25,001 bases of DNA from a virus: positions 1-25,001 of IMG/VR virus record IMGVR_UViG_3300013132_000242, one strand, 5' to 3'. Both the position numbers and the translations under genes were made by a program. The first letter of the stretch is position 1. Each line of letters opens with the position of its first letter. The notes below the pieces were generated by a model. That model ran no database searches. It was not told the origin of the DNA and saw nothing but the letters and a program-made list of their open reading frames with translations. Shown here piece by piece: positions 92 to 3,344 of the stretch.

Positions 92-116
92 CCCCCGCAA
101 GGGGGTTGTTTCTTTT
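92..116 (+). terminator. Intrinsic (rho-independent) terminator, rightward
   Basis: A perfect CCCCC/GGGGG stem closed by a GCAA (GNRA) tetraloop is followed by the T-rich tract TTGTTTCTTTT. This is the classical intrinsic terminator shape for rightward transcription. It should end a transcript entering from the left edge. Read leftward, the same hairpin has no U-rich tail, so it is not an obvious terminator for the tape measure transcript, which converges on this spot and whose stop codon (115-117) touches the T-tract. Confidence 0.8.
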
Positions 117-2430
117 AGAAGGCAGGCTGCTCTCCGAACTGCATAGTTCTTATTGTAGGCTCTGTGTTTCTTGAAGATTGAGGTGCTATGATTATAGGCT
201 CTGATCTAGAAGCAGACGGTGTGCCCACATTGTTAGTTGTTCTATTATTGATAACAGTTGCACTTGAATTTGTCTTAGAGACATCTTCTTGTGCTCTTTG
301 GAGTTCTTTAGTCATCTGACCCATAGAAGTATTTTGATCCTCTGACATTTCTATGGAGGTCTCTTGATTCCTTTTCATGTTTGCAAGAAGCGCAGTCACC
401 TCAGGATCAGGCGGAAGACTAATCGGTCCACCATCATCCATTCCAAATATAGTACCTACAGCATTCTGTGCCGTTTTCTTTGCAATCCAAGCAGTTTCAC
501 CTTCGCCAGTTTTTTGCGCTTCTGCCAAAGTCTCAGCATCTGTTCCTAAAGTTTCTGACACAGGATCTTCGCTCGACCAATCAACTCCGGTAATCCATTC
601 AAGAATACCGTAGGCCAAATCCTTTAGTCCATCAAATATCATTCCCATGAACTCTTTGACCTTTTTTAGTATGTGGTCTACACCCAACATCTCAGCAACT
701 GATGTCACAAGCCAGTCTATTGCCTTGAATAACATCGAAATGGGATTGTATTCAAGTAAGAAATTCCAAAAAGCACTTAAGTGAGTTTTCAATGTTCCGC
801 TGAAGTCATTGACCCAACTCATTAGATAGTCATATACTGCATCAAATGATATACCGAATATGCCTGTGATTCCTGATATGATTCCCGCTACAGCACCTAC
901 AATCATTCCTTTGATGCCATCACGACTAAACCCTTTGAACGCACCAACAAGTGCATCAATTACAGTGATGATTATTGTGAGTGGAAATAATATCTTCGAT
1001 CCTATGAACTTCAAGAAGTTCAAAACAGGAGATAGAAAACTTAGTATTGGAGACATAAATTCTAGTATTCTTGCAAAGAACGATATAACTCTTCCGAATG
1101 GGCCTGCTTGTAAATATTTGGCGATAGGTCCAAAAAACCGTTCACTAAAATCTGCGACTACATCTACAATCCCACTTTCAGCGAAAATTCCCGTAATAGA
1201 ACCTATGATTGATTTGACTAGTTCTGGTGGACTAATTATTCTGAATATAGCACGAATCTCTCTACCGAGATCTGACAAAAAAGTTCCACCTTCTATGAGG
1301 GCAGATCCAATAAGACCGCCCTCAGAAAATAGTCCTTTCACATATTGAATGAACATGTCTTTAGCAGACCCAAGACCCGAAGTCAAAATGGACATTGCTT
1401 TGTCTTGAATGTATTCACTTACACTCGTATACATGTCCTTTATTTTGTCTTGAATGAATTGACTTACAAATGAATACATGTCTTCCAGTTTATTCGTCAC
1501 AGATACTAACACACCTTCAATGTATTCACTTATACTTACTAACACACCTTCAATGTATTCACTTATACTTACTAACGCACCTTCAATGTATTCACTTGCA
1601 TTTGGGAACATCTCTTTGAACTTGTCCTTAGCAAAATCAAATAATCCTCCTAATGCTTTACCTATTGATTCTTTTAAACTTTCTAGGAAATTGCCTTTCA
1701 GCAACAGGTATAACCCACCTCCTACAGCGGCCAGCCCCACAAACGCTATTGCTATTGTTTTGAGGATGTTGAAAATGAATCGTAAAATACCACCCTCAGT
1801 ATTCTCTTTGATCTCTTCAATATTTTCACTTATGTTTTGTATTTCAGGGGCAACTTCTCTGAACCATAGGGGTAACGCATCGGCCTCATCTTCAGATTCT
1901 ATTCTTCTACGAATATCACCTTCTATCGCATCATTTTGTTCAGCCAATCTAGATTCAATATTTCTAAAGATCTCGACTTGTTCTCTAGGTTGACCTTCAG
2001 ATTGAATGTCTCCGAATTCAGATGATCTAAATGCTTCAATGAACTTTTTAAATTCAGAAGTTGAATCTTCTGCACCCTGTTCGGTTGGAGTAAATGAAGA
2101 TACCGATCTTGATACTAATTCTTGACTTTGTGCAAGTTGATTTTGAGTTTCCGATATTCTTGCAAAATTTTCTGTCTGAAATCTGTTCTGTTCACTTTGT
2201 ATTTTGGCAATAAACTCTGACGATTGATTTGCCTTATTGAGAGTTTCTTCTACCGATTTTTGATTTGAGAGTAACTGATCTGATATTTCACGCAACAGTT
2301 TAGTTTGCTCTTCTTGAGTTTGTAACTGTTTGTTGAATATAGCACTTTCCGCACGAAAGTCCGGTCTTTCGGCAGAATCACTTCCTGGTGCTATTCTGTT
2401 GTTTGGATTGAATTCACCTGGGTCGGGCAT
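115..2430 (-). CDS. Tail tape measure / baseplate hub protein, gp29-like
   Basis: 771 residues, considerably longer than T4 gp29 (about 590). The architecture is that of a tape measure protein: a polar, glutamine- and glutamate-rich coiled-coil N-terminal third (about 30-210), a glycine-rich hydrophobic segment (about 215-246), tandem helical repeats (about 278-350), and a long hydrophobic stretch with probable membrane-active helices (about 445-535). A polar tail ends it. By family knowledge it would fill the tail tube lumen, set tail length and leave with the DNA. The ATG at 2430 has a good AAAGGTG Shine-Dalgarno and follows the gp51-like stop by nine bases. Position directly downstream of gp26/gp51 supports the call. 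Three nearly identical 33-base repeats (1501-1599) are internal. Clear homology to T4 gp29 cannot be shown by eye, so the gp29 label rests on architecture and context. Confidence 0.75.
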   Translation of the reverse strand: MPDPGEFNPNNRIAPGSDSAERPDFRAESAIFNKQLQTQEEQTKLLREISDQLLSNQKSVEETLNKANQSSEFIAKIQSEQNRFQTENFARISETQNQLAQSQELVSRSVSSFTPTEQGAEDSTSEFKKFIEAFRSSEFGDIQSEGQPREQVEIFRNIESRLAEQNDAIEGDIRRRIESEDEADALPLWFREVAPEIQNISENIEEIKENTEGGILRFIFNILKTIAIAFVGLAAVGGGLYLLLKGNFLESLKESIGKALGGLFDFAKDKFKEMFPNASEYIEGALVSISEYIEGVLVSISEYIEGVLVSVTNKLEDMYSFVSQFIQDKIKDMYTSVSEYIQDKAMSILTSGLGSAKDMFIQYVKGLFSEGGLIGSALIEGGTFLSDLGREIRAIFRIISPPELVKSIIGSITGIFAESGIVDVVADFSERFFGPIAKYLQAGPFGRVISFFARILEFMSPILSFLSPVLNFLKFIGSKILFPLTIIITVIDALVGAFKGFSRDGIKGMIVGAVAGIISGITGIFGISFDAVYDYLMSWVNDFSGTLKTHLSAFWNFLLEYNPISMLFKAIDWLVTSVAEMLGVDHILKKVKEFMGMIFDGLKDLAYGILEWITGVDWSSEDPVSETLGTDAETLAEAQKTGEGETAWIAKKTAQNAVGTIFGMDDGGPISLPPDPEVTALLANMKRNQETSIEMSEDQNTSMGQMTKELQRAQEDVSKTNSSATVINNRTTNNVGTPSASRSEPIIIAPQSSRNTEPTIRTMQFGEQPAF
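1501..1599 (-). repeat. Three tandem 33-base repeats inside the tape measure gene
   Basis: Three head-to-tail copies of a 33-base unit occupy 1501-1533, 1534-1566 and 1567-1599. The middle copy differs from the others by only a few bases. Each encodes an 11-residue helical unit, S-x-SEYIEGxLV-like (residues about 278-310). A second, more diverged 45-base repeat lies just beside it (starting at about 1399 and 1444), encoding DMYxxVSxxIQDKxx-type units. Such hendecad and 15-residue periodicities suit extended coiled-coil helices. Confidence 0.85.
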
Positions 2431-2439
2431 CTTTCACCT

Positions 2440-2637
2440 TTACTGTTGTCTATGCATTCTTTCTGCTTCCATTTTCTCTTTTTCTTCCTTCAGATGTTGT
2501 ATTAGAAGTTCGATGTATATTCGACGCTCCCATGGAATCATGTTTTCAATTTCAGTCAAAGAGTACTTATGATGTTGCATCATGGCAAAGTTAGTCTCAA
2601 AGTAGTTCAGAAGACTGTCATGAGAGGTCGTTATGAG
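2440..2637 (-). CDS. gp51-like baseplate hub assembly protein, probably made as a -1 frameshift extension of gp26
   Basis: A small frame ending at 2440 encodes the sequence NYFETNFAMMQHHKYSLTEI, then ENMIPWERRIYIELL and a charged helical tail. It resembles the short gp51-type proteins of marine T4-like phages. The recognisable part begins before the first in-frame ATG (2583), which has no Shine-Dalgarno; translation from there would give only 47 residues. CTG at 2610 would give 56 residues but also lacks a ribosome site. The frame stays open upstream into the end of gp26 and lies -1 to it, meeting the TTTTTTC heptamer at 2643-2637. A shift there would add 65 residues to gp26, giving a product of about 301. 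I infer that frameshifting is the main route. Role by analogy: chaperone for tape measure and hub assembly. Coordinates give the -1 frame portion after the slip. Confidence 0.65.
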   Translation of the reverse strand, partial: LITTSHDSLLNYFETNFAMMQHHKYSLTEIENMIPWERRIYIELLIQHLKEEKEKMEAERMHRQQ

Positions 2638-3344
2638 AAAAAATCTTGAACACCTCTTAGATGAACTGTTTCTTCACTCCCACAATGTTTACATGTATAA
2701 CTCACATCTTTAGTGATCTGAGGCATAGTTTCGAAGAACTTTGATAGCATCTTGAATTGACTCTGAGTTAGGTTGTCAATGAATTCAATTATCTCTTTAC
2801 TGTCAAGATCTTTTGCTACAAATGTGTTGTCTGTGGTGTGTATCTTTTCAATGCAGATGGCTATTACATTTAGTAATTTCTCAGCATCGCTTTTCACACC
2901 TTGAACTTTTTCGATATCTGTGATTCTGGGATAGCGCATTTCAATGATCACATTTTTGGATATCTCTATGCTCTTATTGTGTATGTCTTTGGAAACAGGC
3001 TCAATACTGTCAATTGCGATTTCAATTGAATTGACTTTACTACACTTCTTGCACTTCACAGAGGGTTTTGCAGTTTCACCAACTGATTTGCTTCGTATCT
3101 TGAGGAATAGGTACTCGATATCAACCATGGCAGCAGTTGAGACATCTAACTTTCCAAAAGTGCATGCGGCTACGACATCCTGCATCGCTCTGAGTATTTC
3201 TTTCTCGTTTTTTGACTCTGATGCGATTAAGAGTATCTTCTCCTCTCTGACTAGGAAAGGACGATATTCAATCCTCATTTGATTACTCGGAAGAGTAAGT
3301 TCATAAGATGGCGTTGTGGGTATCAGTTTTGATAGTGTACTCAT
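2631..3344 (-). CDS. 26: Baseplate hub subunit / assembly protein gp26-like
   Basis: 237 residues (T4 gp26 is about 208). It opens with a polar segment and a typical EYRPFLVREEKILLIA stretch, shared by the T4 baseplate gp26 family of marine phages. Two CxxC pairs (C98/C101 in VKCKKC, C218/C221 in YTCKHC) could bind one zinc ion; this is a feature of the marine versions. The ATG at 3344 has an AAGGAG Shine-Dalgarno seven bases upstream, and the gp54-like stop lies 19 bases before it. Family role: hub assembly. Its place directly before the gp51-like frame and the tape measure suggests a tail assembly chaperone. The last codons include a slippery heptamer, so a minor product of about 301 residues fused to the gp51-like sequence is likely. 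Confidence 0.8.
   Translation of the reverse strand: MSTLSKLIPTTPSYELTLPSNQMRIEYRPFLVREEKILLIASESKNEKEILRAMQDVVAACTFGKLDVSTAAMVDIEYLFLKIRSKSVGETAKPSVKCKKCSKVNSIEIAIDSIEPVSKDIHNKSIEISKNVIIEMRYPRITDIEKVQGVKSDAEKLLNVIAICIEKIHTTDNTFVAKDLDSKEIIEFIDNLTQSQFKMLSKFFETMPQITKDVSYTCKHCGSEETVHLRGVQDFFS
2637..2658 (-). promoter_or_regulatory. Candidate -1 programmed ribosomal frameshift site (T TTT TTC) with upstream SD-like element
   Basis: Reading leftward, the gp26 codons run GAT TTT TTC TCA TAA. The heptamer T-TTT-TTC (2643-2637) is in the canonical X-XXY-YYZ register for tandem -1 slippage. The zero frame stops one codon later (2633-2631). AAGAGGTG (2658-2651), a Shine-Dalgarno-like run seven bases upstream, is of the kind that stimulates frameshifting in E. 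coli dnaX. Downstream, a weak 6-bp stem AGTCTT/GAGACT (2616-2611 with 2598-2593) starts 20 bases after the heptamer, which is further than usual. Confidence 0.65.

Follow-up and report, generated by a model that had tools for sequence, protein, structure and literature searches.

The region immediately 5' of the tape measure gene was analysed in a 25,001-nucleotide stretch of DNA (the window) from an uncultivated marine T4-like phage, and the features found there are collected in Table 1. The gp26 product matched PF12322 (T4_baseplate) with an E-value of 3e-59 and a score of 200.8 bits against a cut-off of 24.5, and positions 7-232 of the 282 positions of phrog_150 with E=2e-62. The 3' end of the gene reads GAT TTT TTC TCA TAA. 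The initial annotation had placed a slippery heptamer in the correct register one codon before the stop, and the sequence check found this to be exact.

Table 1. Features of the gp26/gp51 region in the window
Feature	Coordinates	Strand	Basis or remark
gp26, short tail assembly chaperone form (TAC-N)	2631..3344	-	237 aa; PF12322, phrog_150
AAGAGGTG, Shine-Dalgarno-like element 5' of the slip site	2651..2658	-	sequence
Slip site, heptamer T_TTT_TTC in register with gp26	2637..2643	-	sequence; T_TTT_TTN conserved in relatives
gp26 stop TAA, one codon past the heptamer	2631..2633	-	sequence
gp51-like C-terminal domain (TAC-C)	2440..2637	-	65 codons plus stop; phrog_634, phrog_150 C-terminal end
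First -1 frame ATG past the slip site	2581..2583	-	would start a separate 47-aa gp51; weak ribosome site
Tape measure protein gene	115..2430	-	E=1.1e-12 with phrog_4200 (tail length tape measure)

The -1 frame was said to be open for 65 codons carrying gp51-like sequence, and this was confirmed up to the TAA at 2440. Its product matched phrog_634 with E=6.5e-27 ('baseplate hub assembly catalyst') and, with E=3.5e-7, positions 231-281 of 282 at the C-terminal end of phrog_150, so that gp26 and the -1 product are together predicted to form one full-length phrog_150 protein. The fusion of the two comes to 301 aa counted from the gp26 ATG, as had been estimated. The sole open reading frame of at least 40 aa with a start codon in this part runs from the ATG at 2583. 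As the initial annotation had noted, the recognisable NYFETNFAMM sequence has already begun before this first ATG, which falls inside the conserved part.

The two overlapping frames, gp26 and the -1 tail, lie directly 5' of the tape measure gene, which starts 9 bases after the gp51-like stop. The tape measure gene also holds a 33-bp tandem repeat at 1504-1597 (2.8 copies, 98% matches), in frame and of the SISEYIEGVLV type, possibly a sign that the copy number in this tail-length gene changed recently.

Conservation of the slip site and of the -1 frame

The search for relatives used gp26 and, separately, the -1 product as queries, and annotated phage records were added to its results. The conservation set comprised the 117 loci at which both domains lie on the same strand, and the frames were anchored on profile matches. 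An alignment of gp26 ends across related phages had been proposed along with the initial annotation; in the set gathered here T_TTT_TTN stood in the gp26 register at 116 of 117 loci and the C-domain lay in the -1 frame at 116 of 117. The -1-product query favours a conserved Phe-Phe, and the loci found by gp26 alone gave the same picture: both domains were present in 22 of them, with the heptamer and the -1 frame in all 22. The arrangement is kept in the Straboviridae phages Aeromonas AP1 and CC2 and Cronobacter LPCS28, and likewise in Stenotrophomonas, Rhizobium, Sinorhizobium and Ochrobactrum phages. A distant blastn search was also run with the 5 kb at the start of the window, and the best among the matches listed all fell within 2449-2654.

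The two exceptions were one Ackermannviridae phage, with the -1 frame and no heptamer, and Synechococcus phage S-SCSM1 (MK867354.2), with the heptamer intact and the C-domain in the +1 frame owing to extra bases past the gp26 stop, around 1480-1540 of its locus. The +1 frame of S-SCSM1 is either a real change or a sequencing error. For the window itself, an error of sequencing or assembly could in principle have split one continuous gene, as a one-base change can mimic a frameshift; the same junction recurs in isolates and in environmental contigs of many sources, and this explanation was rejected on that recurrence, its probability being negligible.

After clustering at 70% protein identity, the heptamer was kept in 58 of 59 clusters, and elsewhere in the gp26 genes of the representatives of these clusters T_TTT_TTN occurred at only 9 of 13,864 codon positions; its presence at the slip position is therefore not due to chance. 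The first Phe codon at the slip site was always TTT against a same-gene expectation of 68% (log10 probability about -12), and the codon before Phe-Phe always ended in T against an expectation of 58% (log10 probability about -15), both probabilities treating the clusters as independent. The gp26 stop usually followed 0-2 codons past the heptamer and 8 codons past it in one group. In the Pelagibacter phage Mosig group the 0-frame runs about 8 codons past the heptamer, giving a longer overlap than in other groups.

The last base of the heptamer across the 58 clusters was C in 29, T in 22, A in 5 and G in 2. This distribution bears on slippage of the RNA polymerase on the six-T run, by which mRNAs of altered length would supply the second frame. 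Some relatives do have seven-T runs, and transcriptional slippage in bacteria is known on runs of 9 A or T (PMC5009743). The run here is shorter, with six T, and in most clusters the heptamer ends in C, A or G and not in T, while the codon register, the SD-like element upstream and the nearby 0-frame stop are features of a ribosomal shift. Polymerase slippage is thus an extremely unlikely source of the second frame.

The sequence from the slip site to the first conserved Met was stop-free in the -1 frame in all 54 clusters, whereas the other two frames had stops in 54 and 52 of them. Among the differences in this segment, 45% fell at the third -1 codon position. These patterns indicate that the segment is translated in the -1 frame. 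No ATG, GTG or TTG occurred between the slip site and the conserved Met in 31 of 54 clusters which, together with the weak ribosome sites, agrees with the expectation that the absence of a gp51 start would be conserved.

The main competing explanation was that gp51 is a separate gene, translated from the internal ATG at 2583 or by reinitiation past the gp26 stop, and that the heptamer is a by-product of the conserved Phe-Phe. Public records do annotate gp51 from an internal ATG, and the NFAMM/NFALM position commonly holds a Met. However, the -1 protein is conserved from the slip site onwards, about 20 codons before that Met. The ATG at 2583 had been described as lacking a ribosome site, and the calculation bore this out: the best anti-SD pairing near it was -2.7 kcal/mol, which is weak, against a mean of -6.6 kcal/mol for the best upstream window of the shift sites. 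The TTT codon and the T preceding it are fixed beyond codon usage, and the long form is a single polypeptide in the gp51 of T4. Phe-Phe alone does not force a heptamer, since phages T4 and S16 keep Phe-Phe in gp26 with the heptamer broken (GAG TTC TTT in T4, GAA TTC TTT in S16). The broken heptamer with kept Phe-Phe is, as read from these sequences, found in phages that encode the long form in a gene of its own. The separate start was rejected on the upstream -1 conservation, the weak ribosome site and the excess of the heptamer over codon usage, and it is considered very unlikely.

The upstream element and downstream folding

The SD-like sequence noticed seven bases upstream of the heptamer was found as AAGAGGTG, and its AGAGG ends 9 nt before the heptamer. 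This spacing is within the range of 9-14 nt published for stimulators of -1 shifting such as that of dnaX (PMC5009743). Strong anti-SD pairing at this position was present in about 91% of the 58 clusters compared with 5.6% of control positions. A conserved [KRE]-Gly imposes much of the element, and the evidence therefore lies in the excess of pairing and not in its bare presence: the pairing was -6.6 kcal/mol against -5.5 kcal/mol for synonymous codons drawn from the same genes (p=3.6e-6). By this sequence comparison, the element is conserved beyond the amino-acid constraint.

A stable downstream stem-loop was also sought in the window, and the folding there was not significant (z -0.62 and -0.93). 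Across the clusters the downstream folding was mildly above control, with a mean z of -1.4 against -0.4. A stem-loop as stimulator was rejected on the non-significant result in the window and the only mild enrichment across clusters.

In Ackermannviridae and close relatives (8 loci) the C-domain lies in -1 relative to gp26, and no canonical heptamer is present. The slip region of these phages shares only T_TTY, in the forms ATT TTC, CTT TTC, CTT TTT and GCT TTC. Some of them have a TAATG stop-start overlap while others, for example Kuttervirus, have no ATG at the junction. Their route could be slippage of a single tRNA or reinitiation. We propose tentatively, at somewhat below even probability, that the shift depends on the SD-like stimulator and not on downstream structure, and that the heptamer-less Ackermannviridae use another route. 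In the record of Dickeya phage LIMEstone1, which belongs to the Ackermannviridae-like -1 group, gp26 (locus 595-1401) is labelled 'confirmed structural protein', which is unusual for a chaperone believed not to stay in the virion.

Predicted products and their annotation

The heptamer, its register, the -1 coding of the C-domain, the upstream element and the gene order are conserved. A -1 programmed frameshift giving short and long tail assembly chaperones, as in lambda G/GT, is very probably the explanation of this locus. Most ribosomes would stop at the gp26 stop codon and yield the short chaperone TAC-N. A minority would slip back by one base at T_TTT_TTC and enter the -1 frame, probably aided by pairing of AAGAGGTG with 16S rRNA, and this reading would yield the 301-residue gp26-gp51 fusion (TAC-NC). 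If the pair works as lambda gpG/gpGT does, coating of the tape measure protein would fall to the short form and recruitment of tail tube subunits to the C-domain of the long form. The occurrence and efficiency of the ribosomal shift we infer from sequence, and the role of both products as tape measure chaperones by analogy.

The -1 shift put forward in the initial annotation is strongly supported, as the heptamer, the register, the short 0-frame overrun and the uninterrupted -1 frame are conserved in divergent T4-like phages. Counting against it are the +1 C-domain of S-SCSM1, the Ackermannviridae arrangement in the -1 frame without the heptamer, the lack of strong downstream structure in the window and the record that labels a gp26 as a structural protein. 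The predicted fold of gp26 (mean pLDDT 88.9) had no significant match in the PDB; the HK97 tail assembly chaperone (gp13, 2ob9) had the top probability, 0.16 with E=1.2, among the 50 PDB matches listed. Against viral predicted structures the fold matched mostly other gp26 and baseplate hub proteins, and a search of the gp26 profile against PDB sequences found nothing relevant.

The gp51 of marine T4-like phages would accordingly be read as a C-terminal extension of gp26 and not as a separate protein. On that reading the examined database entries carry a misannotation, some by omitting gp51 and others by starting it at an internal ATG. The gp51-like -1 domain is present and unannotated in S-WAM1, Sf-CH1b, Aeromonas AP1 and CC2, other phage records start gp51 at an internal ATG, and no joined frameshift CDS at gp26/gp51 was found among the records examined. 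A 2010 comparison gave cyanophage gp51 as only about 20% of the full length, with no shift proposed, and gp51 seemed to be missing from Aeh1 (PMC3037559). The apparent length of about 20% of T4 gp51 would arise because the cyanophage domain is a C-terminal extension of gp26, and the 'missing' gp51 of Aeh1 may be explained by the unannotated -1 C-domain which the Aeromonas phages AP1 and CC2 carry. Across the phage set, nature supplies the same protein pair in arrangements that can be set side by side: with frameshifting, as two separate genes and in heptamer-less variants.

Comparison with T4 and other known systems

In T4 the two genes, 26 (208 aa) and 51 (249 aa), are on opposite strands, so that no counterpart of the shift is possible there. 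A profile of the fused product was built from the window and its relatives with the T4 sequences left out. On its 301 positions T4 gp26 matched 9-240 and T4 gp51 matched 28-284, and PF12322 was matched by both T4 proteins; on these matches T4 gp26 and gp51 are short and long versions of one protein. T4 is thus like the present phage in that gp26 matches the short form and gp51 is a full-length form of the same profile, and unlike it in that its heptamer is broken and the two genes are on opposite strands, with no frameshift. The proposal that gp26/gp51 is the T4-like counterpart of the lambda-type pair consequently holds for the T4-like relatives and not for T4 itself, where the genes are separate.

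The abstract of the 2022 paper of Vladimirov et al. is said to name T4 genes 26 and 51 and to state that several T4-like groups appear to conserve the frameshift. T4 was still the exception to G-T frameshifting in a 2016 review (PMC5009743). Vladimirov, Gautam and Davidson (Virology 2022) are cited in one paper for those T4-like phages which have a short chaperone gene and a longer fused gene instead of frameshifting (PMC10885494). According to citing papers, some T4-like groups have a poly-T shift site ending the short gene and others have two genes (PMC10885494, PMC12846349). The analogy with lambda G/GT is supported here and, by the account of the papers crediting Vladimirov et al., is also the published view. 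As far as these accounts represent the 2022 report, the chaperone frameshift of T4-like phages had already been described in it, the uncultivated phage is a further member and the novelty implied by the initial annotation falls away. Two points, the SD-like element upstream and the lost heptamer of the Ackermannviridae, possibly go beyond that report as the citing papers present it.

The E. coli dnaX site also has an SD-like element 9-14 nt 5' of its heptamer; it differs in its A_AAA_AAG, in place of which poly-T is found here, and in its downstream stem-loop, which has no clear equivalent here. Phage Adele of the Vandenendeviridae, a different family from that of the T4-like phage analysed here, has a -1 shift at a conserved GTTTTT ending TAC-N, 5' of the tape measure gene (PMC12846349). 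Unlike the sites of lambda G/GT and P2 E/E', the site here has a poly-T heptamer with an SD-like element in front of it. Both of those pairs share with it a -1 shift close to where the short gene ends and just 5' of the tape measure gene, and both make a C-terminally extended minor product, as is predicted here (PMC5009743).
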